Shown here piece after piece: positions 4,603 to 33,012 of a DNA stretch of 33,012 nt (position 1 is the stretch's first letter; every line of letters begins with the position of its first letter). The position numbers and the translations under genes are program-made. Source of the DNA: a virus; the IMG/VR virus record IMGVR_UViG_3300025395_000005, positions 1-33,012 of that record, one strand, 5' to 3'. The notes beneath the pieces are model-generated. The model worked only from the letters and a program-made list of their open reading frames with translations. It ran no database searches and had not been told where the DNA came from.

Positions 4603-5196
4603 TTACTGTAGGATCAACCATCTATCCACTTCCTCCCAACAGGCATCAAAAATTTCCCCGCCTTCAGTATCCCAACGATCACCATAAAAATGGACTATTT
4701 GAGGCTCCCGGCTAGTCTCAGCTACCACATAGGTATCATGCTGCACCTGTGGTACAGATCCTCCCTTAGCTGGTCCCGGTTGCCATGGTAGTTGCTGGTG
4801 GGTGTCGGACATATTTGTCTCCTTTACTTCAAGATTAACCATCGATCTACAAGTTTCGGGTCCACCCTGCCAAGAGATGCTATCGCTGAAAGCATCGTCC
4901 GGCACTGGATCAGGTTTGCCTTCGCCGCGATAAAAAAAACGGCAAACCTTTTTCTTTGGTGTCGCATCCTGCGGAGGCTGTGGCGGTGTCGTATAGCTTG
5001 AGCCGCCTTGCGGTGGTTTCTTGCCGCCGGAGCCACGACGAGTTTTTAAATTTGCGAACACTCCGGCAGTATCAACCAACTTTTTCGCCCGCTCCCAATT
5101 TTCGCACTTGCTGCAGTGCTTTGCATGACAAAAACAGGAAGGGACCAGCGTGTAAAGGGCGTCAGCCATTTCCGCGATTAGTTCAGTTGGTGTCAC
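4603..5196 (-). CDS. Hypothetical protein, 197 aa; possibly two genes fused or frameshifted
   Basis: I do not recognise a family. Residues 1-40 contain four cysteines and histidines in 'CFCHAKHCSKCENW', a probable metal-binding site. A Gly/Pro-rich linker (about 55-80) follows, then KKVCRFFYRGEGKP and a second, acidic half. An internal ATG at 4812 has a textbook AAAGGAG site and would start a 69-aa protein, MSDTHQQLPWQPGPAKGGS...VDRWLILQ. In another frame the DNA just before it reads ...VDPKLVDRWLILK-stop, nearly the same ending. So this open frame may be two tandem genes that share an end, merged by a frameshift. It overlaps the sigma-factor stop by 14 bases. Confidence 0.5.
   Translation of the reverse strand: MTPTELIAEMADALYTLVPSCFCHAKHCSKCENWERAKKLVDTAGVFANLKTRRGSGGKKPPQGGSSYTTPPQPPQDATPKKKVCRFFYRGEGKPDPVPDDAFSDSISWQGGPETCRSMVNLEVKETNMSDTHQQLPWQPGPAKGGSVPQVQHDTYVVAETSREPQIVHFYGDRWDTEGGEIFDACWEEVDRWLILQ
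4810..4825 (-). promoter_or_regulatory. Strong internal ribosome binding site for a 69-aa start at 4812
   Basis: On the minus strand AAAGGAG (4825-4819) stands six bases before ATG 4812-4810. It is one of the best ribosome sites in the block, yet it lies inside the longer open frame starting at 5196. This supports separate translation of 4603-4812. Confidence 0.55.
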
Positions 5197-5770
5197 GTGA
5201 TACCTTAACCTTTCCTTCGAGCCTGTTTTTCAACATACTTTTCCCCTGTTCATAAATCTGCCTTACCCTCTCCTTACTTATTCTGTATCGTTTTTTAATC
5301 TCATCCAGGGTGTAGCCTGTCGATCTTAAAAGCAGGATTTCCCTCATTCTTTTGTCTGGTAAAGATTCGATAGCTTTGACCATTAGAACGATTATTTCTT
5401 TTGTTTGAATTATCTCTATTGGATCATTTTCTATTGGTAAATCAAAATTGCCCTCGGACAAAGAAACGATTTCTTCTTTACGAACCGATTCTGAAAGTTT
5501 AACTATGTGTTTTTTTTTATATTGTTCCATCCAACCCCAGTTTAGATTCCGGTATACCCAGGTTGATAGTTTTGTTCCATGTGGCCCCTTTTCGACCCAG
5601 CTCCTAATCGCCTGAAGGTATTTCAACGACAGATCAGACATGATTTCATCAAGGCCCTGATAAAGGTTAAATCGCCTTTTCCTTTTCGCCGCCCAGGAGC
5701 CCAGCAAGTAAATCTTGCTCTCTTGCAGCTCTCTGATTTCCTGTTCCTGGCCCTTTTTCTTTTTTGTCAT
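5183..5770 (-). CDS. Phage sigma-70-family RNA polymerase sigma factor
   Basis: The 195-residue protein has an N-terminal charged tail (MTKKKKGQEQEIREL) and a region-2-like part at about 40-90 ('LSLKYLQAIRSWV...WVYRNLNWGW'). Region 4 is clear at about 132-186: 'AIESLPDKRMREILLLRS', then a helix-turn-helix 'GYTLDEIKKRYRISKERVRQI' with the terminal basic KNRL. ECF-like sigma factors of about this size bind core polymerase through region 2 and the -35 element through region 4. A phage factor at the end of the replication block would be expected to switch host polymerase to late promoters (inference). ATG 5770 has AGGATGA just upstream. The gene overlaps the previous one by 104 bases in another frame, which is unusual. 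Confidence 0.82.
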   Translation of the reverse strand: MTKKKKGQEQEIRELQESKIYLLGSWAAKRKRRFNLYQGLDEIMSDLSLKYLQAIRSWVEKGPHGTKLSTWVYRNLNWGWMEQYKKKHIVKLSESVRKEEIVSLSEGNFDLPIENDPIEIIQTKEIIVLMVKAIESLPDKRMREILLLRSTGYTLDEIKKRYRISKERVRQIYEQGKSMLKNRLEGKVKVSRDTN

Positions 5771-12613: not shown

Positions 12614-13798
12614 TTACCCAAGCTGCTGTTGGGTTTCCCGAGCAAGGTCCGACAGCTCGGCATAAATGGCGGTTGTTGATTTATCAGCATGACCAGCTAC
12701 AGCCTGAGCTGCCTCTTGCCCGTCCTTCCCAAGCTGGTGGACAGCCAGCTTAATCTCAGTCAATCGTAAGTGTCGGATCTGGCGGGGAGACCATGGCTCG
12801 ATCGGATTGGAAGGGGTCCGCCTGTTGGCTTCTTTTATGGATCTGACCACAGCATGAAGGTAGCTGGACCTGTTGTAGCAGCCTCTCCCCACTCCCTTTC
12901 GGATCAAAGGGAATACCCAGTCAGATTCCTTTTTCCCTTCGAGCAACGGAGCCAAGATAGCCTGAGCCCGAGGTCCGATCCAGTAATGGGATTCAATCGG
13001 TTTATCAATGTGTTGAGTCTTGTATTCCTGCGGAGAATATTTCCAGACCGGCCCGGATCGATCTAGATCATTGATTCTCATGCAACAGATCTCATCCATC
13101 CGGCAGCCCAGCAGGGAATGGACCAGGATCAGCTCCCGGAGGCAGCCTGCCGGCAGCCAGGGCAAAGTCCTCTCGATCTGCTCCCGGCTGACTGGTGGAA
13201 TTTTTTTCCCTTCAGGAGCTGACGTCCTGGTCCTTGCCAGGCCTCGGACCTCTCGTTGGGATTGCAGAGCTGCGAGAGGGATTCCCAGATGGGTATGGCC
13301 CCAGCTCCAGATCCTCCTGACTCTGTTTACCTGTTCATTCACGTTTCCCCTGGTCCACCTTTTCAGTTGCTTCCCTGATCGATAGGTCTGTTGAAGGAAC
13401 AGCTCCCGGATCCCTCGGAGCTCGGCAGCTCCGATCAATCCTGCCAGCCGATCAGAATAGGGAGAGTCGATCAGGATCGAGATAATCTTTCTAAAACAGT
13501 ATACCTCGCTGGTAGGTATTCCTTTTTTGACATAGTAAGTTTCCGCGTGTCGAAGGAAGGCCGCCAGTAGCTCCGCTACTGTCACCTGCCCTGGCTGTTC
13601 TGGGCTGACCGTTCGATCATTCCCCAACCACTCGGCTATCTTCTGCTTATATTTATCGATGGTCTCCGGATCTTCCCGGTCCCCCAGGTAGTGATCGACC
13701 CCATTGATTCTTACCCTGCCACGGAACCTCCCATCTGGGCCCTTGTGCCAGGTAAGTTTCGGAACCCAGCCAGATCCCGGCTTCCTTCGGGGGCTCAT
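12614..13798 (-). CDS. int: Tyrosine site-specific recombinase (phage integrase)
   Basis: It has 394 residues. The N-terminus 'GRFRGRVRINGVDHYLGDRE' is an arm-binding-type domain, followed by a SAM-like core-binding domain (about 80-190) and the catalytic domain. Catalytic residues are visible: 'LLGCRMDEICCMR' (Arg I), a 'YKTQH' box with the conserved Lys, 'RQIRHLRLTEI' (box II HxxR-type), 'GHADKST' and the final Tyr in 'TAIYAELS'. It catalyses recombination between attP and the host attB. ATG 13798 has GGAG nine bases upstream. An attP core from a tRNA-Pro gene lies just upstream, which is typical. The overall sequence style, including 'VWKYSPQEYKTQH', looks planctomycete (from memory). Confidence 0.95.
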   Translation of the reverse strand: MSPRRKPGSGWVPKLTWHKGPDGRFRGRVRINGVDHYLGDREDPETIDKYKQKIAEWLGNDRTVSPEQPGQVTVAELLAAFLRHAETYYVKKGIPTSEVYCFRKIISILIDSPYSDRLAGLIGAAELRGIRELFLQQTYRSGKQLKRWTRGNVNEQVNRVRRIWSWGHTHLGIPLAALQSQREVRGLARTRTSAPEGKKIPPVSREQIERTLPWLPAGCLRELILVHSLLGCRMDEICCMRINDLDRSGPVWKYSPQEYKTQHIDKPIESHYWIGPRAQAILAPLLEGKKESDWVFPLIRKGVGRGCYNRSSYLHAVVRSIKEANRRTPSNPIEPWSPRQIRHLRLTEIKLAVHQLGKDGQEAAQAVAGHADKSTTAIYAELSDLARETQQQLG

Positions 13799-14267: not shown

Positions 14268-14570
14268 TTATCGACTACATTTCCCGTTGGACCAGATCGA
14301 CTGAGCCTGGATCACTGGACCCGTAACAATCACAAGAGCTGTGGCTGGCCAGGGTGCCGGCAGCACCTGGACAGGCTGGATAGGCTGCTGAACAGGATAG
14401 GAAGCTGGCTGATAAATCCCGCTGGCAGGGATCGAGCAGGAGCCATCGGAGCAGGCTGGAGCAGCACAGCTCCCACCAGGACAACTCGAAGCCCGAGCAG
14501 ACCGCCAGCCAGCGTCAACCTGGCTGGACAACAGGAACAGGGACAGGATCGACAAAATTCTGATTAGCAT
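14268..14570 (-). CDS. Secreted Cys-rich small protein, 100 aa
   Basis: ATG 14570 has AAAGGA upstream. Residues 1-20 (MLIRILSILSLFLLSSQVDA) form a clear Sec signal peptide with probable cleavage after VDA. The mature part holds CPGGSC, CSDGSC and further cysteines, then a Pro/Gln-rich stretch (QQPIQPVQVLPAPW), a second hydrophobic segment 'ALVIVTGPVI' and NGKCSR. Cys motifs of the CPGGxC type recur in planctomycete exported proteins (recollection). As the last late gene, after the peptidase, it could be a lysis or envelope factor or a moron. Not a typical lipoprotein: no lipobox is seen. Confidence 0.65.
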   Translation of the reverse strand: MLIRILSILSLFLLSSQVDAGWRSARASSCPGGSCAAPACSDGSCSIPASGIYQPASYPVQQPIQPVQVLPAPWPATALVIVTGPVIQAQSIWSNGKCSR

Positions 14571-14907
14571 TTGAATCCTTTCTTTTTGTTTTTTCTCGGA
14601 CCATTTCCGAAACCTGATGATTGACGATCCCGAGAGCCCATTCCACCAGGATAGGCCAACGGACCTTGGAAGGGATTGAAGCAATCGAGAGTTCTTCGAT
14701 TGCAGCCTCGAGGCTTTCCGCTACGATCGTTTTGAGTGGAGCTGGATCCTCGGGAGCTCCACCAGCTCGGGGAGTTGGCACAGCTCCTGGAATCGCCACC
14801 GAGACTCCATGCCGAGAAATTTCCAAGGCTCCGTCGAGACAATTATAGTCCCAGGTTCTCTGCCCCCGGACATATTCCAGGAGCACCTGCAAGTACATTC
14901 TTTCCAT
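14515..14907 (-). CDS. Hypothetical protein, 130 aa
   Basis: I do not recognise it. The sequence has an N-terminal helix (MERMYLQVLLEYVRGQR), a Pro/Gly/Ala-rich middle (AIPGAVPTPRAGGAPEDPAP), a helical part 'SLEAAIEELSIASIPSKVRW' and a basic region before a Pro/Val tail (DPVPVPVVQPG). The start overlaps the previous stop as TGATG, and the 3' end overlaps the secreted-protein gene by 56 bases. It lies in the late cassette beside the peptidase and membrane proteins. Confidence 0.55.
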   Translation of the reverse strand: MERMYLQVLLEYVRGQRTWDYNCLDGALEISRHGVSVAIPGAVPTPRAGGAPEDPAPLKTIVAESLEAAIEELSIASIPSKVRWPILVEWALGIVNHQVSEMVREKTKRKDSNANQNFVDPVPVPVVQPG

Positions 14908-15257
14908 CAGTTCTCCTCGGGGAAAAAGCTGACAGTGATTGCTCCAGTCCTGACAGGAGCAGCAACAGCAGTAAGTACCGCCGCGAGGATCTCCGGGAGG
15001 AGCTGATCAAGGATCATGTTAGCAGTCTGTAGGGTGAACACCGCGAAAGGACTGCCAGCCAGGAGGGTCTCGAGTTCCTGGAAAAGGGAGTCGATAATCT
15101 TCTGGGGAGCCAGACCAGCCGGAATCCATTTTTTGATCAAACTGGGAAGAATTCCATTCGACAGGCTTTTCAGCTCGGCGACAACCTGGGCTCCCAGATA
15201 GGGAGACAGTTTCTGAAAACAGGCATTAATTAAACTGATAATCTGATTTGCGTCCAT
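14907..15257 (-). CDS. Hypothetical late protein with hydrophobic helices, 116 aa
   Basis: ATG 15257 follows a purine-rich AAAGGAAAAG; the frame extends to 15371 but that would run far into the peptidase gene. It reads MDANQIISLINACFQKLSPYLG, then a helical middle, and a hydrophobic C-terminal part 'MILDQLLPEILAAVLTAVAAPV' that could be an amphipathic or membrane helix. I do not recognise a family. The position right after the papain-like peptidase suggests a lysis-related or peptidase-associated function, but nothing in the sequence proves it. Confidence 0.55.
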   Translation of the reverse strand: MDANQIISLINACFQKLSPYLGAQVVAELKSLSNGILPSLIKKWIPAGLAPQKIIDSLFQELETLLAGSPFAVFTLQTANMILDQLLPEILAAVLTAVAAPVRTGAITVSFFPEEN

Positions 15258-15270
15258 TTTTCTTTTCCTT

Positions 15271-16110
15271 TTAAACAAGACTTGGAACCACCACACCAGG
15301 AGCAACAGCGGAATCAGGGATCGCCCTCGATCCCAACAAAATTGACATGCCTTTATAGCCGTAGTCATCACCCCAGCTATTCAGGAATCTGACTCCCCAC
15401 TGACCATCTTTTTCAACTGGATCGAGGAACAGAACACTGTGCCCCCACCAGGAAAGATCAGCAACGACAGGAATCCGACAGAATAACAGAGTCATGACTT
15501 GATCAAATGTCAGTTTCTGTTTATACTGTGGGATATCGAGATCCCACCAGCCAAAAGTAGTTTTATGTTTGGCCGCATTCTCCCAGGTTAAGGGATTATC
15601 GTTGGCCCGATTCATTGACTGCATGGGCCAAAACTGGCTCGAAGGTACTCCTCTGGTAGAGATGAATTCCAGCGATTCAGCTCCCCAGCCTCCCTCATCG
15701 CGGAAATTCTTTTCCATGCAAGCAACAGCGTAGGCACTCAATGGAACATAAGGTTCACCATTGACTGCCCTGACCATCATGACAGCAGCCGTAGAACTGT
15801 GGGCCCAGCAATAGCCTTTCCCGTTTTGGTCGAGGCTGGGAATTATCTGGCCATTGTTGCCACACATCCTGATATCGGACAGCCTGGAGCGATTGGCTTC
15901 CATGGCTCGGATGCGATCTTTCCATTCTGATCTTGGAATCAGTTTCAGTTCGGGAAGAGCTTTCATCGAGGAAGAATATCCAACCGGATGAGTCGAGAAA
16001 TCCCGAGGCTTGCACCCTTTCGATTTAAGCTCGCCATCGATCACAGTATCTATATGTTCTGCAAAATTATCATCAGTGATGAAAATTTCGCCAGGGTAAA
16101 AATTATTCAT
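15271..16110 (-). CDS. Papain-like (C1A) cysteine peptidase, lysin candidate
   Basis: It has 279 residues from ATG 16110 (GGAGG just upstream). The papain catalytic set is complete: oxyanion Gln95 and nucleophile Cys101 in 'DQNGKGYCWAHSS', His224 in 'WWGHSVLFLD', and Asn244 in 'FLNSWGDDYGYKG', with the expected spacing of about 120 and 20 residues. There is no signal peptide; residues 1-90 may act as a short propeptide-like part. C1A enzymes cut peptide bonds in proteins, not peptidoglycan glycan strands. It stands directly after two tiny membrane proteins in the late cassette, where an endolysin is expected, and no muralytic enzyme is recognisable in the genome. A role in lysis or in processing envelope or virion proteins is inferred. 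Confidence 0.85.
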   Translation of the reverse strand: MNNFYPGEIFITDDNFAEHIDTVIDGELKSKGCKPRDFSTHPVGYSSSMKALPELKLIPRSEWKDRIRAMEANRSRLSDIRMCGNNGQIIPSLDQNGKGYCWAHSSTAAVMMVRAVNGEPYVPLSAYAVACMEKNFRDEGGWGAESLEFISTRGVPSSQFWPMQSMNRANDNPLTWENAAKHKTTFGWWDLDIPQYKQKLTFDQVMTLLFCRIPVVADLSWWGHSVLFLDPVEKDGQWGVRFLNSWGDDYGYKGMSILLGSRAIPDSAVAPGVVVPSLV

Positions 16111-16213
16111 TCCACCTCCCATTTATTATTTCTGCGAAAACAGCAATTAACCAAAAACAAATTAAGGAAAAGGCTGTTACATACCAGTCTGGTGTATGCA
16201 GTGTTTCAATCAT
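16103..16213 (-). CDS. Small membrane protein, 36 aa
   Basis: ATG 16213 lies within the end of the 30-aa gene, and its stop overlaps the peptidase start region. It reads MIETLHTPDWYVTAFSLICF and continues WLIAVFAEIINGRWNE: a single hydrophobic helix of about 19 residues with short polar ends. Tight overlap with both neighbours indicates co-translation. A holin or antiholin-like role is suggested only by position and topology. Confidence 0.55.
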   Translation of the reverse strand: MIETLHTPDWYVTAFSLICFWLIAVFAEIINGRWNE

Positions 16214-16299: not shown

Positions 16300-16995
16300 T
16301 CATGCCCCGTATTTCTGGAGCAGTTTCAAGGCTTCCTCTGCTGTCGCTGGTAAAGGCCCGGAAAAGCCCGTTTTTCCGTCGCTGATAATGATCCAGGGCA
16401 ATTGAGATCTAGGCAATTTCAGGGCATCCTGGAAGGCCTTGGAATCATTGCTGGCATCGATCCCAGCGTCCCATATTCTCCAATCTGGAAGGCCAGAGGG
16501 TCCCTTAGCCGCCTTGGTATTCAGGTAAGTCCTGATATCAGCAGAGAACAGGATATCCTGCTGAGCTGTGGGAAGCTGTGACAGATTTTTAGTGTCGTAA
16601 AGGATCAGAGCTCTGAAGCCCTCCCCTGCTATGGGAGCAGGAGTTGGAGCAGGTCCGGGAGGGACAGGGCCCGGAGGAGTCGGCCCACAACCAACTACCA
16701 GAGTCGTGATCGCTGGATCTGTTGGGATATTGTTTTTGCTGGAATAGCACATGATCCGATAGGATCCAGGCTGCTTACAGATTGCAATAGCTGTCCTGGT
16801 GTCTCTCAAGTGCTGATCTGGAATCAGCTTGATTCCCTGATCGAGAGGGAACCATTTTACAGCAGCATTAATTGACTTAGCCTGAATAACGATTGGTTCT
16901 CCCGGGTCTCCCGAAATCTGCTTGGGGAGATCAATATCAAGAACTGGCGATCCCGCTCCCAGTGCAGCCAATATCAGTTTAAACAGATTTTCCAT
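16300..16995 (-). CDS. Two-domain protein with Pro-rich hinge and possible thioredoxin-like C-terminus, 231 aa
   Basis: The N-terminal part (about 25-100: 'GEPIVIQAKSINAAVKWFPL', 'PGSYRIMCYSSK') looks like an immunoglobulin-type beta sandwich. A proline hinge follows (PTPPGPVPPGPAPTPAP). The C-terminal part ('RALILYDTKNLSQL', 'DWRIWDAGID', 'LPWIIISDGKTGFSGPLP', 'EEALKLLQKYG') has the beta-alpha-beta pattern and cis-Pro-like 'LPWIIISD' of thioredoxin-like folds, but no CxxC redox motif. The start overlaps the holin-like gene stop as TAATG. Role unknown; it may be an envelope-interacting late protein. Confidence 0.55.
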   Translation of the reverse strand: MENLFKLILAALGAGSPVLDIDLPKQISGDPGEPIVIQAKSINAAVKWFPLDQGIKLIPDQHLRDTRTAIAICKQPGSYRIMCYSSKNNIPTDPAITTLVVGCGPTPPGPVPPGPAPTPAPIAGEGFRALILYDTKNLSQLPTAQQDILFSADIRTYLNTKAAKGPSGLPDWRIWDAGIDASNDSKAFQDALKLPRSQLPWIIISDGKTGFSGPLPATAEEALKLLQKYGA

Positions 16996-17318
16996 TATGT
17001 CTCCTGCTGAGTTCTTTTTAAGTTCTTTGAAGATTTTCCCGAACTGACAAGCCCGAGCTCCTGGAGCTGATTTGCCGCGAAACCTTTTCCGCAGCCTAAT
17101 TTATTCAATCGTTCCAGCTCGGAAGACAGGTGGATCTGGTATTCCGTGATTTGATTGATCGCCGATTCCAGTTTCGAAAGAAAAAGGAAATGCCTTTCCT
17201 GAAGAGGAAGGATAACCTTTGTTCCAAACCAGACCCCACCTGACCAGAGACCCCAGCCGATAGCGACCAGTAAGGCAACAGGTATTCCCAGATCTTTCAC
17301 CACTTGTAGCCATTCCAT
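16995..17318 (-). CDS. Holin-like membrane protein, 107 aa
   Basis: The N-terminus 'MEWLQVVKDLGIPVALLVAI', then GWGLWSGGVWFGTKVILPL, holds one long or two short membrane helices. It is followed by a coiled-coil region 'FLFLSKLESAINQITEY' and 'LSSELERLNK' and a basic end. One N-terminal membrane segment plus a charged coiled tail resembles BhlA/UviB-type holin proteins and is common in late phage cassettes. It precedes the two-domain protein, tiny membrane proteins and peptidase in one operon, supporting a lysis-timing role. An alternative is a membrane-anchored spanin-like partner. Confidence 0.6.
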   Translation of the reverse strand: MEWLQVVKDLGIPVALLVAIGWGLWSGGVWFGTKVILPLQERHFLFLSKLESAINQITEYQIHLSSELERLNKLGCGKGFAANQLQELGLVSSGKSSKNLKRTQQET

Positions 17319-17358: not shown

Positions 17359-18909
17359 TCACGATATTTTCAGAAACGTTACTTCTTTGTGGAGGTACTC
17401 TGAAACAGGGATCAGCTCGAAAAGGTTTAAAGGGTATCGTTCGAGGGACAGAGCTCGATATCCTCCCAGGTGACAATCGGCCAGATCGGAACGTTGGTCA
17501 CGATCGTAAACCAGCAAGAGATATTTCCATTTTCCGCACGACCGCGCCCAATCCAGCCAGTCCAGAACAAGATTGCTTGGCCAATGATGAAGAACATCTT
17601 TCAGGATTGCCAGGTCTCCTGCCGGCAGGAGGTTTCTATCCAGATTCAGATCGGCAGCAAAATAGATCCTGTGAGTATCTGTAGCCTCTATTCCCAATTT
17701 TTTGACAATGCTGGTACAGCAATCCACCCCAACATAATCTTCGATCTCGATCTCTTTTCCTACCGATCCATCCCCACAGCCGAGATCAACGATTCTTTTT
17801 ATTTCAGGTTTCCAATGAAGCAGGAAATTGACCAGGCTGACAAAAGGTCTGGCCTCTGCCGGCAGGCTTCCAGCTCCCGATCCCTTCCCCCAAAGCTGTT
17901 TTTGGTAAATCAGCTCAAAAGTTTCTTCTGGCGACTTTTCTTCATTACTCAACACTTGCGATAAATGCCAAAAAACTTCTTCTTCCTTTGGCAAACAATA
18001 TTGGGGATTGGTGTACATTTGCTGCCGATCGGGGATATCCTCGATCCTAAACAGTTTCCCCTGGCATCGATGGACAATCCTGGGAACCTGATCGCTGGTT
18101 GAAAGGACAAAAGCCGTTGCTGTCCAGGCAGCTGGCCCAAGGCAATGCCAGCTGATCTCTCCTGCCAGAACTGAGAGAATAACTCTCCAGCAGTCCTGAT
18201 CACCGAACATGTGAACAAAATAAAAATCGGAATGCTGACACATCCAGTGAGCCAGGAGGATCAGTTTCCAGGCCTTGGAACGATCGATCACCAGCTGGCC
18301 ACCCTGAACAGCAGGAACCCCGTTTTCACCCTCTTCCCAAACTTTTGACCATTGCAGGGTATTGTAGTTTCCCGGAAGATCACTCCAGAAACAGAAATCA
18401 CCTTTTTGAAGTTCCTGAAACAATGGCTCGACCTTATCGACCACATAAGCATCGGCATCAAGAAAAATGACTCGCCGATATCCGCAGTAAGCCAAGGCGT
18501 AGAGCTTGGCCTCCCAGCCCCTGATGATCCGGGCTCCCGTCCTTTTTCCATGGGCTTCGATATTGATCAGCTCGATCGGTCCGAGGCTTGCCACCTGTTC
18601 CGGCAGAACCTTTTCACAAGATTCTCGATACCAGACCTGGACAGGGAGCTGGCAACCCTGCTGCCTCAGCATCCTGATTCCTACCACAATTCCAGGCCAG
18701 TAGACTCCGCCGCCTACATAGACGATTCCATCCCCTACTGATACAGGAGGCTCGAAGGATTCCCCTCGAAGGTAATTCAGGGCTTGATAATGAAGGTTTC
18801 TGGTATCGGCATGGTGAGCCCAATCGCCTGGCCGATTCGGATCCTCGGGAGCTGGAATAGGATCCTGGAGCAATGGTTTCAGAGGTTGAACGAATTTTAA
18901 TCGAGACAT
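17359..18909 (-). CDS. Glycosyltransferase - methyltransferase fusion, 516 aa
   Basis: ATG 18909 has AAAGGTG upstream; the frame extends to 18981 inside the previous gene. The N-terminal domain has 'IVYVGGGVYWPGIVVGI', 'RGWEAKLYALAY' and 'RRVIFLDADAYVV' (DxD at 151-153), then 'GGQLVIDRSKAW' and 'MFGDQDCW': the GT-A layout of MNN1/GT71- and GT8-like transferases using a nucleotide sugar and divalent metal. The C-terminal domain (about 370-500) has the SAM-binding 'RIVDLGCGDGSVG' (motif I at 374-384), 'YVGVDCC' and 'DLAILKDVLHHW', a class I methyltransferase. One chain could add a sugar and methylate it. Substrate is unknown; the gene just upstream encodes a Ser-Gly repeat tail protein, and virion or host-surface glycans are possible targets. 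Confidence 0.85.
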   Translation of the reverse strand: MSRLKFVQPLKPLLQDPIPAPEDPNRPGDWAHHADTRNLHYQALNYLRGESFEPPVSVGDGIVYVGGGVYWPGIVVGIRMLRQQGCQLPVQVWYRESCEKVLPEQVASLGPIELINIEAHGKRTGARIIRGWEAKLYALAYCGYRRVIFLDADAYVVDKVEPLFQELQKGDFCFWSDLPGNYNTLQWSKVWEEGENGVPAVQGGQLVIDRSKAWKLILLAHWMCQHSDFYFVHMFGDQDCWRVILSVLAGEISWHCLGPAAWTATAFVLSTSDQVPRIVHRCQGKLFRIEDIPDRQQMYTNPQYCLPKEEEVFWHLSQVLSNEEKSPEETFELIYQKQLWGKGSGAGSLPAEARPFVSLVNFLLHWKPEIKRIVDLGCGDGSVGKEIEIEDYVGVDCCTSIVKKLGIEATDTHRIYFAADLNLDRNLLPAGDLAILKDVLHHWPSNLVLDWLDWARSCGKWKYLLLVYDRDQRSDLADCHLGGYRALSLERYPLNLFELIPVSEYLHKEVTFLKIS

Positions 18910-18917
18910 ATTCACCT

Positions 18918-19778
18918 TTAGCTGATTATGATCGATCCGGACCCGGATCCCGAGGAACCACCGGAACCACTGGAACAGCAACCGATATTTTGACTGGTTG
19001 TAGATCCCAGAATACCACCAGGAATGAAAATTGTTTGTTTTGTAACTTGAATTCCTGATCCTAAGATCTGAACATCAGTTACCACATTAATGGCAATAAT
19101 TCCGGATCCGATGGAACCTGTAGACCCTGTAGACCCGGGAACACTGCCGGAAGATCCCGATCTCAGGCTTCCAGATAGTGAAACCGATCCCGATCCAGAT
19201 CCAGATAGCAGGATCGATCCAGACCCTGATCCGGAACCGATCGACCCAGATCCCGATCTCAGGCTCCCGGAAATACTGCCAGAGCCAATACTGCCCGAGC
19301 CTGATCCAATCGATCCGGACCCGGAGCCGATACTGCCAGACCTTGGTATCGATCCCGAGCCAGAGCCTGATCCCGAACCAGATCCGGAATATCCACTGGA
19401 AACAAAACTGGCTCCAGCCTGGACCCAGAAAAAGGGAAAGTAATTGTCGGAATAAATCCCGCTGGCTCCCTGATTGAATCCCGACAGTTTCCCAAGGTAA
19501 TTTTGCCCGACAGCCAAAGGATAGCCGTTGATCTCGCTGATTATGCAGGAAACCCCTGTTGACCAGGTTAAGGTCTGATTATTCCAAATATAGGTGATGC
19601 CAGGATAAGTGTTGTTCGTTGAAGTGGCTCCCACCTGGACCACGGCCATCGAAGGAGCTGTCGGACCATCAGGACCCGGAATCTTTTGTCTGGCGTTCCA
19701 TAAATGGCCGCCTTCGAAAGCCTTCAGCATGCTCGAAAGCCTGCTGGCTGCGTCATAATCAATAGCGAAACCCGGCAT
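18918..19778 (-). CDS. Tail protein with long Ser-Gly repeat region, 286 aa
   Basis: Residues 1-125 are ordinary sequence (MPGFAIDYDAASRLSSML; 'GATSTNNTYPGITYIWNNQT'), including the strand-rich 'NYLGKLSGFNQGASGIY'. From about 130 to 230 the protein is almost only Ser and Gly with spaced Ile, Leu, Arg and Pro (units such as GSGSIGSGS and GSLRSGS). A short structured segment and an SGSGS-rich end with CC follow. Repeats of this kind are known in planctomycete proteins and phages (recollection). Its place between the tail-tip gene and the glycosyltransferase suggests a fibre or tail-tip protein. The many serines could be O-glycosylation sites (inference). Confidence 0.7.
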   Translation of the reverse strand: MPGFAIDYDAASRLSSMLKAFEGGHLWNARQKIPGPDGPTAPSMAVVQVGATSTNNTYPGITYIWNNQTLTWSTGVSCIISEINGYPLAVGQNYLGKLSGFNQGASGIYSDNYFPFFWVQAGASFVSSGYSGSGSGSGSGSGSIPRSGSIGSGSGSIGSGSGSIGSGSISGSLRSGSGSIGSGSGSGSILLSGSGSGSVSLSGSLRSGSSGSVPGSTGSTGSIGSGIIAINVVTDVQILGSGIQVTKQTIFIPGGILGSTTSQNIGCCSSGSGGSSGSGSGSIIIS

Positions 19779-27205: not shown

Positions 27206-27784
27206 TTATTTTTCAGATTTTAACTTTTTGGAAACACGATATCGATTTTGAAGAAACCACAATTTTCGCTTCCGACTTTCCCAGTCTCTAATCGAATTCA
27301 GGCTTCGAAGAGCGACAGAAGTATCTGGATAGGCTGGAATCGTCACGACAGAGACTTCGATCAAGTCCAGATCGGTCAGGGTCCTGATTCTTTGGCCGTC
27401 GACCACCTCCCAGGTTTCTCCCCCTGGCCGCACCAGGAAGCCAAAACTCATCTGGGAGATATCGCCCCTGGTCAGCAGGGTCTGAAGGTCTCGGGAGTAG
27501 CTGGTATCTGGTGGATCGATCTCGACCTGGAGCCCCTGATTATCGGTGGACAGCTTCAAAGTTCCGATCGAGGATCTGCCCAGAATTTTGCTGGAGTCGT
27601 GATCAACAAAAGCCCGGATATCTGTCTTTGAATTCAGGGCATAATCGAAAGCACCAGGAGCGATCTTTTCCCGGAATCCTCCGAGATCTTCACTTAAAGG
27701 ACCAAAAACAGCAGCATATCCAAGGATTTTTTTTCCGTCCGTCTGGGTGACGGTTCCAGCGTCCCGACGTTCGATTAGCTTCAT
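27206..27784 (-). CDS. Prohead maturation protease (HK97 type), 192 aa
   Basis: The true start is ATG 27784 (MKLIERRDAG), overlapping the portal stop as ATGA; the longer frame to 27895 is inside portal. Motifs: 'ILGYAAVFGPLSEDLGGFRE' and 'IAPGAFDYAL' at the N-terminus, 'RAFVDHDSSKILGR' with catalytic His62, and 'GDISQMSFGF' with catalytic Ser113. This is the herpesvirus-like serine protease fold used to trim scaffold and capsid N-termini inside the prohead. It lies between portal and capsid, as in HK97. Confidence 0.93.
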   Translation of the reverse strand: MKLIERRDAGTVTQTDGKKILGYAAVFGPLSEDLGGFREKIAPGAFDYALNSKTDIRAFVDHDSSKILGRSSIGTLKLSTDNQGLQVEIDPPDTSYSRDLQTLLTRGDISQMSFGFLVRPGGETWEVVDGQRIRTLTDLDLIEVSVVTIPAYPDTSVALRSLNSIRDWESRKRKLWFLQNRYRVSKKLKSEK

Positions 27785-29289
27785 TTCGCCCCTCCCGGCT
27801 GAATCGGCACCCATTTGATTTTCCAGCGATGTTTCCCGCCAGGCTTGACTGGAGGAATCAATTCTCGCTCTCGCTCGATCCCGCAGATCCTGCAACGATT
27901 GGTCGATCCGTGCTCACAACAGGGGATCTGGTATTCACTCATTTGTTCCGCTAATCGCTTGACCGATTCAGAAATTGCGGGAGAATTTCTTTCCAATTCG
28001 CTGTCGTCCTGAGTCAGGTCATCAGCAGGAGCTGGCACAGCGACAACAGCAGGATCATTCGTTGGAGCCGATGGACCATCTGGAGCGTTTAGAGGCTGCA
28101 TATTGAGGGGCTGGAGGTAATAATCGCCACCTGGAACAGGATCGAGATTTTCTTTCGCCCGGATCTCGTTGACCGAAAGCCAACCCCAGTTTCTGCCGAC
28201 AGCGTAAGAGCTGTACCTGGTAGCCTGGTCAGCTCGGAGCATTCCCTCAACAAGGAATTCACAGTAGTATTGGTCCCGTTCACCTGGGAGCAGCAGCTTA
28301 TGGAATACAGTCTGCTCGAACCTGATCAACCATGGTCGAATTGTTTCGGAAAGGAAAAACAGGTTTTCCTGTTCAAGCCCTTGCCCGCCTGCTCCAGAGA
28401 CCCGGAGCTTCGATAATGGGACATTGAAGATCCTGGCTGCTTCCTCGATTTGAAAGGATCGAGTTTGCAAGAATTGGGCATCATCTGGAGGGACCCCGAG
28501 GGATTGCCACTGGAGCCCCTGTTCCAAAATAGCGGTCCTGTGGGAATTATAAGTCCCTGATTGCAGGGCATCCCATTCCCGCCTCAGTCTTTGTTTGGCA
28601 TCATCCGAGAGAGCACCTGGCACAGTCAGAACCCCGGAAGGTCTGGCTCCATGACCGAAAAGCCTGGCTCCGAATGTTTCAGCAGCCTGGCCGAGCCCAA
28701 GGCCCTGGCGATGGACCCTGATAGGGGAATAGCCCTGAATCCCGTCATAGGAAAGCCCAGGCAGATGAAAGATATCTGCTGCATCAAATGTTTGAGTTTG
28801 TCCATCCAGTGGAATAAATTTGTAATAGAGGCTTCCATCAGCCCGCCTGTGAGTTGTCACCCGATCGGGAGGCAGCAGCCAGAGAGATTCAGGAACCCCG
28901 AATTCATTCCTTTGAATTTCCGCATAGGCATTGCCCCACGTGAGGCAATGGGCAATAAAGGCTTCCCTCCAGATCAGGCTTGTTGTTTCCGGATTAGGCA
29001 GATCGTGGAGGAGCGAGTAAAGGGGGTGATCGTATGCCCGGACCCGCCGACCTTCAGGGGTTTTTCGATAAAGGATACAAGGCAAGCTGGCAATCGTTTC
29101 AGAAATCACTCGGACAGCAGACCAGACGGCAGCAATCGAAAGAGCTGTAGACTCAGAAACTCCAACCCCTGAAGCTGTCAAATGACTGCCGAAAAGATGG
29201 ACCAGCGCAGGGTCTCTAAGGCTCCAGGCAGATTGTCTCTGCTCGGGCTGCCTCGAAAACAGCGATGCAATACGATTCAACATTCCCAT
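27781..29289 (-). CDS. Portal protein, HK97 family, with Cys-rich C-terminal tail
   Basis: It has 502 residues. The landmark 'TALSIAAVWSAVRVISETIA' and 'SLPCILYRKTPEG' at 45-80 is the classic HK97-type portal start. Later come 'GNAYAEIQRNEFGVPESLWL', 'IFHLPGLSYDGIQGYSPIRV', 'IFNVPLSKLRVSG' and 'GWLSVNEIRAKENLDPVPGG'. Twelve copies form the packaging channel. Unusually, the last 60 residues contain 'CCEHGSTNRCRICG', a possible zinc-binding knuckle, followed by a basic tail, not a usual portal element. ATG 29289 is 56 bases after terminase. Confidence 0.93.
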   Translation of the reverse strand: MGMLNRIASLFSRQPEQRQSAWSLRDPALVHLFGSHLTASGVGVSESTALSIAAVWSAVRVISETIASLPCILYRKTPEGRRVRAYDHPLYSLLHDLPNPETTSLIWREAFIAHCLTWGNAYAEIQRNEFGVPESLWLLPPDRVTTHRRADGSLYYKFIPLDGQTQTFDAADIFHLPGLSYDGIQGYSPIRVHRQGLGLGQAAETFGARLFGHGARPSGVLTVPGALSDDAKQRLRREWDALQSGTYNSHRTAILEQGLQWQSLGVPPDDAQFLQTRSFQIEEAARIFNVPLSKLRVSGAGGQGLEQENLFFLSETIRPWLIRFEQTVFHKLLLPGERDQYYCEFLVEGMLRADQATRYSSYAVGRNWGWLSVNEIRAKENLDPVPGGDYYLQPLNMQPLNAPDGPSAPTNDPAVVAVPAPADDLTQDDSELERNSPAISESVKRLAEQMSEYQIPCCEHGSTNRCRICGIERERELIPPVKPGGKHRWKIKWVPIQPGGAK

Positions 29290-31306: not shown

Positions 31307-31556
31307 GGTACTACCTTAAAAAATGATTAGGACCTAAAAACTGAGCAAAAAAGTGTTGCTGATTCGACTAGTACGGTCTTTCGGTCAGGTATTGCAACTG
31401 TTTTACCCCCTACCCTTACCCAATCTGCTTTAGTCCCAGCAGGGAGAAAAAGTTTATTGCATCCGTCCAGATGCTTGTATTATCCGACAGGTTAAGACTA
31501 ACCCCGCTAGCCTGTTTAATTGCCGCTACATTGGCCTGATTTCCAACCGCTGGCGT
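31307..31556 (-). pseudogene. Possible broken gene between the oxygenase and terminase genes
   Basis: No gene with a normal start lies between 31307 and 31515. Two minus frames look like protein: one (31416-31556) reads VGNQANVAAIKQASGVSLNL...INFFSLLGLKQIG-stop, the other overlaps it and reads NKLFLPAGTKADWVRVGGKT...ESATLFCSVFRS-stop. Neither has ATG, GTG or TTG at its beginning; joined by a -1 shift they would make one continuous 70-80 aa sequence. This may be the remains of a gene cut by insertion of the neighbouring cassette. Evidence is frame appearance only. Confidence 0.3.
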
Positions 31557-32121
31557 TCACCCACCAGCCGTACATGAAAAGAACCCTTGGCACATTCCCA
31601 TGGCAGACATCCACGCGATGCCTGTAATGGGTGACCAGGTAGCAGTGAAGATCACCAGCGTTTACCTCGTAAGGCTTGCCGTCGATCCAGATCGTGCCGC
31701 CACTTTCTGGCTTGGAGACGAGGACGTTGCACCTCAGCCCGGCGACCGTTGGGTGGTCCTTGTGGGCGGGATCCAGGTGCTCGTAGACATCTCCACTGTC
31801 GTAGGTCACGCTCACTACCAGTCCATCCACCCCGCCGAATTCAATCCTGGACAATCCCTTGAGAGAAGGAATGGTATCGAGGATTTTGTCCTGGATCCTG
31901 TAGGCGAGGTCTGGGTACTTGACCGTCGAAAGCCCTTCTTCGTTGAAACGGGAAGTTACCCGTTTGTCAGTGCGGGCAACTCCTCCACGTTCGTGGTCCC
32001 TGATGATCCCAAGAACAAACCCATCACGCCGTTGGGCAGCATTAACGCTCCAGTCAAACAAGCCTTGCCGCTCGTCCTCCGAGAGAAATCCTGGAACCAG
32101 TAATACTTTTCCGTCCCACAT
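31516..32121 (-). CDS. 2-oxoglutarate/Fe(II)-dependent oxygenase, 201 aa
   Basis: ATG 32121 overlaps the sulfotransferase stop as TAATG. The jelly-roll metal triad is clear: H115 and D117 in 'YDSGDVYEHLDPAHKD', and the distal His168 with following Arg179 in 'YRHRVDVCHGNVPRVLFMYG'. The pattern 'CNVLVSKPESGGTIWIDG...GDL' matches prolyl-4-hydroxylase-like enzymes ('L..p..GGe.......p..Gdl..f'). Such enzymes hydroxylate proteins, lipids or DNA using O2 and 2-oxoglutarate. Similar phage genes exist, with substrates mostly unknown. The gene is GC-richer than its upstream partner, the sulfotransferase. Modification of a virion or host-surface molecule is a guess from context. Confidence 0.85.
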   Translation of the reverse strand: MWDGKVLLVPGFLSEDERQGLFDWSVNAAQRRDGFVLGIIRDHERGGVARTDKRVTSRFNEEGLSTVKYPDLAYRIQDKILDTIPSLKGLSRIEFGGVDGLVVSVTYDSGDVYEHLDPAHKDHPTVAGLRCNVLVSKPESGGTIWIDGKPYEVNAGDLHCYLVTHYRHRVDVCHGNVPRVLFMYGWWVNASGWKSGQCSGN

Positions 32122-32762
32122 TATTTCTGGTATCCAAACAGCTCGAACTCTTCGGGGCAGTACTCGAACACTTTTTGCCGGTAATCCCACCTGTCGTACC
32201 TGGGCAGGTCGATCCTCGAAACGCCAATGTTTGGGAGATCCACATTTTCTTTTATAAATGGCAATTGTTTTAAATCAAAAACAGGGAATTCCTGATGAAT
32301 CAAATAATCAACACGACCAAAATCATTTACGACATCCTGATAAATTTCCGATTGTTTTACTGGTCGAAAAAAATTCCTTTCAAGATCGTCAAAATAAACC
32401 CATTCGTTCCTTGCACCATATGCAGTTTTAATTTTTGAACCAACTATTAAGTAATCCAGCCATTCATCGAAACTTTCCCACAACAGCCCATGTCCATCAT
32501 TGTGATTTTTCCATGCCGACAATCGCAAAAACATGGACAACATTCTGCGAAAAGGATGTCGTACCGTCATGCAGATAGTGTAAGTTTTCAATTGATTTGT
32601 ATATTCTTGACCCCAATACTGTGCTATGACATTTAAGTCAAAACCATGTTTTCCTATTGCTTCAAATGCTTCGTAATTATCTGTAAACCATTTTGAAATC
32701 GAACGTGAAGCTGTTGACTCCGGAAAAATGAAAACAGTTTTATATTTATCACTGATATACAT
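32121..32762 (-). CDS. Sulfotransferase-family protein, 213 aa
   Basis: ATG 32762 overlaps the polyglycine gene stop as TAATG, so the longer frame to 32795 is not used. Sulfotransferase (family 2-like) landmarks: a P-loop-like 'FIFPESTASRSISKWF' near the N-terminus, the 3'-phosphate-binding strand and helix 'VRHPFRRMLSMF' (R68, S76), 'VYFDDLERNFF' and the C-terminal 'YCPEEFELFGYQ'. The usual Lys of the 5'-phosphosulfate loop (hPKtGgT) is replaced by Glu, and the last Thr by Arg, so catalysis needs testing. PAPS-dependent sulfation of a carbohydrate or tyrosine is the family reaction. The coding sequence is markedly AT-rich compared with the head genes, suggesting recent acquisition. Confidence 0.78.
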   Translation of the reverse strand: MYISDKYKTVFIFPESTASRSISKWFTDNYEAFEAIGKHGFDLNVIAQYWGQEYTNQLKTYTICMTVRHPFRRMLSMFLRLSAWKNHNDGHGLLWESFDEWLDYLIVGSKIKTAYGARNEWVYFDDLERNFFRPVKQSEIYQDVVNDFGRVDYLIHQEFPVFDLKQLPFIKENVDLPNIGVSRIDLPRYDRWDYRQKVFEYCPEEFELFGYQK

Positions 32763-33012
32763 TATGCTGTGTAAGATCCTGAGCCAACATCCCAAGCCAA
32801 AATCGTGTTAAATCCGTTGGTTTTTGGGTATCCGGTCAACATGGTGCCTGTGTATGTGCCGGTATATTTTGCAGTTGGGACTGACAAAATCACGACACCA
32901 GATCCACCGGAACCTCCTGTATTCCCTCCGTTTCCTCCTCCACCTCCTCCAGTATTAGCTGTTCCTGATATTCCAACAGCAGGAAAAGTGCTAGCACCTG
33001 CACCACCTCCAC
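32762..33012 (-). CDS. Polyglycine-rich adhesin-like tail protein (C-terminal part; same gene as 1-722)
   Basis: This is the 3' end of the gene that starts at 722; positions 32886-33012 repeat 1-127. It encodes the last glycine-rich turns (GGNTGGSGGSGVVILSVPT) and the non-glycine tail 'KYTGTYTGTMLTGYPKTNGF...LAWDVGSGSYTA'. The stop TAA overlaps the sulfotransferase ATG. The terminal 35 residues are the most unusual part and could carry a binding or anchoring function (inference). Confidence 0.85.
   Translation of the reverse strand, partial: GGGAGASTFPAVGISGTANTGGGGGGNGGNTGGSGGSGVVILSVPTAKYTGTYTGTMLTGYPKTNGFNTILAWDVGSGSYTA
32886..33012. repeat. Terminal direct repeat, right copy
   Basis: Exact copy of 1-127; joining the copies gives a closed molecule of 32,885 bp with an uninterrupted polyglycine gene. 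Confidence 0.95.

Follow-up and report, generated by a model that had tools for sequence, protein, structure and literature searches.

A gene on the late strand of the window, the 33,012-nt stretch of viral DNA analysed here, encodes a papain-like cysteine peptidase. Tailed-phage lysis enzymes are regarded as cell-wall hydrolases. The question raised by this locus is whether a proteinase could act in the endolysin's stead. A sequence-only reading had proposed this and had linked it to a planctomycete host. A literature search for papain-type lysins of phages, or for lysis of planctomycetes by phages, found nothing in the library searched. A recent survey of lytic proteins from prokaryotic viruses (PMC12596118) mentions neither papain, cysteine peptidases nor planctomycetes in its main text.

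The peptidase and its genome

The two ends of the window share a direct repeat of 127 bp, which fits a closed, complete genome of 32.9 kb. It encodes an HK97-type head (S78 protease, capsid, portal and TerL), tail genes, an integrase, RusA and an HNH nuclease. Features are listed in Table 1. Homologues of the small protein directly downstream of the peptidase were present in the closest relatives, L015 and L018, and a homologue of the exported Cys/Pro-rich protein was present in L018. The sigma-70 region 4 match in the window scan was also obtained in the relative G015.

Table 1. Coordinates of features in the window
Feature	Position	Strand	Remarks
Probable source of the sigma-70 region 4 match	5183-5770		3.6e-7
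Integrase	12614-13798		
Exported Cys/Pro-rich small protein	14268-14570	minus	Signal peptide, then SCPGGSCAAPACSDGSCSIP...
Small protein	14907-15257	minus	MDANQIISLINACFQKL...; longer reading from 15371; downstream of peptidase
Papain-like (C1A) cysteine peptidase	15271-16110	minus	Longer reading starts at 16122; by Pfam, alignment and AF2 fold
Tiny membrane ORF overlapping the peptidase start	16103-16213	minus	MIETLHTPDWYVTAFSLICFWLIAVFAEIINGRWNE; TTG-started form to 16255, 50 aa
Tiny membrane ORF, 30 aa	16206-16298	minus	MPDDCCLVLMIILAVAAAFVLDYFFPAKDD
Partner	16300-16995	minus	N-terminal signal/TM-like segment, Ig-like domain (residues 18-104), Pro-rich linker, C-terminal domain of about 105 aa
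Holin-like small membrane protein	16995-17318	minus	One N-terminal TM segment, long polar tail; topology only
540-aa fusion, Mannosyl_trans3-like glycosyltransferase plus methyltransferase domain	17359-18981		E = 2e-16 (Mannosyl_trans3); between tail and lysis-like genes
S78 prohead protease	27206-27895		
Sulfotransferase-like protein beside a 224-aa protein	31516-32190 and 32121-32795		Sulfotransfer_2, 1.2e-4; the 224-aa protein reads as a 2OG-Fe(II) dioxygenase by eye only

The peptidase ORF extends from 15271 to 16122 and encodes 283 aa. The start at 16110, giving 279 aa, was the better one because GGAGG lies 4 nt upstream of it and the homologues start there. Residues are given in the 283-aa numbering, in which C105 corresponds to C101 in the 279-aa numbering used earlier. 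Peptidase_C1 (PF00112) was the only Pfam match to the protein (E = 1.5e-6, 28.9 bits against a curated cut-off of 20.7). Neither a muralytic catalytic domain nor an S78-type prohead-protease domain, which belongs to a different family, was found in it. A profile built from 26 family sequences matched PDB papains with a best E of 9e-11, the His/Asn part included. Q99, C105, H228 and N248 were invariant in all 26 aligned members and were also kept in four further divergent ones. The C1A hallmarks QNGKGYCW and NSWG were retained. The AlphaFold2 model had a mean pLDDT of 88 and a pTM of 0.89. Its best structural matches were all C1A enzymes (xylellain, pro-papain and procathepsins), with xylellain first (Z 21.5, rmsd 2.5 over 215 residues). 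The intact Gln/Cys/His/Asn site described in the sequence-only reading was thereby borne out, and the predicted structure agreed with it. Judged by profile, tetrad and predicted fold, the peptidase is a member of C1A, the papain family. By its domain content it falls outside the muralytic endolysins, although it may act like one.

In the predicted model the N-terminal 75 aa or so are followed by the papain domain. Many zymogens aligned to the model from about residue 17, and the N-terminal part therefore sits at the position of a zymogen pro-region. Besides the catalytic Cys only C135 was near-invariant across the family (25/26), so that the papain disulfides are not conserved. Taken with the lack of a signal peptide, this would fit folding in the cytoplasm. 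The phage peptidase thus has the tetrad, the fold and a pro-region-like N-terminus in common with papain, cathepsins and the bacterial xylellain. It differs from them in being phage-encoded, in its missing signal peptide and disulfide cysteines, and in being tied to an exported partner.

The partner, the neighbouring genes and the family

A homologue of the partner was located directly upstream of the peptidase in 26/26 records, on the same strand and 0-1.7 kb away. When the consensus sequence of the partner C-terminal domain was used as query in a reciprocal search, nine loci were recovered, four of them new, and the peptidase was adjacent in all nine. These two genes were the only ones common to the collected phages; other clusters occurred in at most 6 of the 22 genomes compared. 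The partner is an obligate companion of the peptidase and the two are inherited together. It was not mentioned in the earlier reading.

An N-terminal hydrophobic, exported-like segment was present in 25 of the 26 partners and was masked in the remaining one. In the AF2 model of the partner, the Ig-like domain gave a structural match with Z of about 10, and this domain filled the match list of the structure search. The predicted element order of the C-terminal domain was beta-alpha-alpha-alpha-beta-alpha-beta-beta-alpha, a thioredoxin-like secondary structure. This domain had no PDB profile match, and CxxC was found in 0/26 copies.

In 12 of 18 records one of the two genes preceding the partner (-1 or -2) encodes a small TM protein, where the same genomes give an expectation of 24% (nominal P = 1.5e-4; the records are not all independent). 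None of the TM genes near the pair clearly matched a known holin family, and they are termed holin-like from predicted topology alone. The product of 16995-17318 matched neither Pfam nor PHROG, nor any holin family. The late cassette proposed from the sequence was thus upheld as to its strand and as to the tiny membrane ORFs, which are real (30 aa and 50 aa), and the holin-like gene keeps that name by topology. Two small TM proteins followed the peptidase directly in L092/L093. Downstream of the peptidase many relatives encoded an exported protein in which PQAP/PQSTL or Cys-rich stretches occur. Thioredoxin domains were detected in three such downstream proteins, in G002 (2e-8) and, both under the cut-off, in G014 (1.4e-3) and G220 (0.013). 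In G220 the gene directly after the peptidase (L087:2036-3169) encodes a secreted trypsin-like domain (1.5e-10) fused to a WCGPC thioredoxin-like domain.

The peptidase family was found in about 30 IMG/VR and MAG records. Relatives with 41-64% identity were present in 24 IMG/VR records (window copies excluded) and two MAG contigs; several records are fragments, and L012/L013 and L016/L019 look like duplicates. Carriers of the pair include otherwise unrelated phages. No relative was found among 50,697 public phage records by tblastn with the window copy and the divergent L092 as queries, whereas a TerL query gave 1,242 matches there. The family, which is absent from these public records, and its obligate pairing are new here.

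One of the two MAG contigs belonged to a Planctomycetaceae MAG. A survey of 392 genomes from one phylum, centred on this MAG, returned the MAG itself, the divergent member G220 and one marginal match, which was a different papain-like protein. The G220 copy lies within a 3.0-Mb contig of a Planctomycetota chromosome, among portal- and capsid-like ORFs (read by eye), and is a prophage. Its gene order is TM protein, partner, peptidase, and secreted trypsin plus thioredoxin. Alphaproteobacteria, the MAG label of L016, was set aside as a host; the same 193-kb virus, which carries the peptidase pair, is IMG/VR contig L019, and the label or the binning is doubtful. The host of the window phage is probably a planctomycete. 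The link proposed earlier was supported by the Planctomycetota prophage and the Planctomycetaceae contig.

Cell-wall enzymes and the portal-scaffold interval

No muralytic domain was detected in the window by Pfam on the genes judged plausible, a set that mostly excludes very short and opposite-strand ORFs. The peptidase is the window genome's sole candidate for a hydrolase of the wall or envelope. Amidase_2, Phage_lysozyme, SLT, NLPC_P60, CHAP, M15_4 and M23 were over the cut-off in none of 20 records (the window and 19 relatives). Terminal repeats close four of the genomes (the window, G007, G017 and G023), so the absence of these families from the three relatives is meaningful. Wider Pfam scans of two relatives, which omitted the largest proteins, gave no muralytic family among those listed (25 of 28 families for G015). 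The search for rarer muralytic families covered the window and, in part, two relatives, and divergent enzymes escape Pfam. Within this scope, the sequence-only reading was right that the window encodes no recognisable muralytic enzyme.

CHAP-like matches in G005 and G024 were sub-threshold, came from 71-aa proteins without the catalytic half, and were set aside. M23-like matches below the cut-off were obtained in the 193-kb G016 (766- and 1017-aa ORFs). G015 (L049-L051), the closest large relative, had matches to XhlA (3e-4) and to the metalloprotease-type model ATLF (7e-4). A caution on the absence of the muralytic families is that Amidase_2 was also missing from L127-L135, phages without the pair in the part examined.

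The position of the pair was compared across 35 loci of a capsid family taken from relatives. The same kind of comparison, started from the MCP of the window itself, returned six loci, mostly fragments, and was uninformative. The pair was present at 6/35 loci and, where inspected, sits between portal-like and scaffold-like genes (e.g. L103). In L120 and L121, without the pair, the same interval holds canonical papains with a Sec signal (PF00112, 1.6e-32 and 5.9e-40). In L109, L117 and L119, also without the pair, it holds proteins related to one another, in which one Cys and one His are invariant and which have no database match; from these two residues alone we infer extracytoplasmic peptidases. 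The occupants of the two groups belong to families other than that of the phage peptidase, and no thioredoxin-like partner was found with them. No obvious protease was present at this interval in the capsid-family relatives L106, L107, L110, L111 and L113. Several phages thus fill this place with different proteases, some of them bearing signal peptides, which is the best evidence available here that the place serves extracytoplasmic proteolysis. Phages of the same capsid family also encode related 405-474-aa proteins (L114:1-1425 and L122:15979-17196) with the motif AEVVESYMG...GEGLSRFLAEV, which resembles a degenerate zinc-peptidase site.

Role of the peptidase

The reading preferred here, with a probability of about 0.58, is that the peptidase and its exported partner form the core of a late, self-contained module for attack on the host envelope (lysis), with a proteinase in place of an endolysin. 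It is based on the invariant tetrad, the constant pairing, the lack of muralytic families, the upstream TM genes, the exchange of proteases at one locus and the G220 gene order. From sequence data we infer the timing, the export route, the substrate and lysis itself. The peptidase would be synthesised as a latent cytoplasmic proenzyme, as suggested by the lack of a signal peptide and of a conserved disulfide pair and by an N-terminus placed like a pro-region. The small holin-like membrane protein would release it, or it would be handed to the partner, whose N-terminal segment and Pro-rich linker would either anchor the partner in the inner membrane or serve its secretion across that membrane. 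Once released, the peptidase would cut proteins that hold the envelope together. In many phages a secreted Pro/Cys-rich or thioredoxin-domain protein would help, and may open disulfides.

Compared with holin-endolysin(-spanin) cassettes, the module is alike in its small TM gene, its soluble hydrolase without a signal, its exported partner and its exported Pro-rich protein on the late strand. It differs in that no muralytic domain and no recognised holin or spanin family was found, and its part in lysis is putative.

Papain-superfamily folds occur in known endolysins (CHAP, NlpC/P60). The peptidase could accordingly be an endolysin after all, with a papain fold that has come to cleave the peptides of peptidoglycan or its links to protein, and no other wall enzyme was found in the scans. 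This appears unlikely, since the enzyme keeps the C1A hallmarks and matches papains and not CHAP or NlpC, has no detected wall-binding domain, and shares its locus with the canonical secreted papains of two relatives. Like CHAP and NlpC/P60 endolysins, PeiW and PeiP are viral thiol peptidases that open the host wall, in their case pseudomurein (PMC4592898), and planctomycetes have lysozyme-sensitive peptidoglycan (PMC4432640), which also speaks for an endolysin. All of these enzymes cleave peptides or isopeptides of the wall and are members of other families, whereas the phage peptidase matches C1A proteinases. A quite unlikely alternative is a protease carried by the virion or used at entry, which would open a protein layer from outside at infection. 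Several relatives do have the pair among structural genes, in the portal-scaffold interval or beside tail genes. The distance and order of the pair with respect to tail genes vary, however, and the export segments of the partner, together with the Sec signals of the L120 and L121 papains at the same locus, indicate an enzyme that acts from within the cell producing it.

The strict pairing would also suit an enzyme that has a substrate or an inhibitor dedicated to it, and the window phage has an integrase and one relative is a prophage, as might be expected of a moron concerned with superinfection exclusion, host take-over or partner processing and unrelated to lysis. Such a role is considered distinctly unlikely: the pair lies on the late-gene strand, is common to otherwise unrelated phages and was never found alone in the searches, which is unusual for a moron, and these phages would then be left without any recognisable lysis enzyme. 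Phage proteases near capsid genes are commonly capsid or tail maturation enzymes, and the pair does lie beside capsid genes in some relatives. Maturation is nevertheless highly improbable, as the window already encodes an S78 prohead protease and a dedicated exported partner would be unexpected for capsid maturation.

The expectation of a protein-rich planctomycete envelope was supported in part. Classical work (PMC3035269, citing Liesack 1986) reported an SDS-resistant, Pro/Cys-rich, disulfide-stabilised protein envelope, and peptidoglycan sacculi sensitive to lysozyme were shown later (PMC4432640). A protease with thioredoxin-like helpers fits the former finding and is puzzling under the latter. 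Given the lysozyme-sensitive peptidoglycan, proteolysis alone may not suffice, and a peptidoglycan-peptide substrate or an entry role stays conceivable. A wider proposal is put forward only tentatively, and is rather doubtful: that planctomycete phages dispense with peptidoglycan hydrolases and use a new, 'protease plus thiol-disulfide' mode of lysis, in which a papain-type proteinase, delivered by its thioredoxin-fold partner, and a secreted Pro/Cys-rich or CxxC thioredoxin protein jointly dissolve a disulfide-stabilised protein envelope.

If the lysis-module reading is true, a mobile protease module common to otherwise unrelated phages would be a new way for such phages to exit their hosts. 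It would bear on the old dispute about protein versus peptidoglycan as the basis of the planctomycete envelope, and it may provide a tool to open planctomycete cells.
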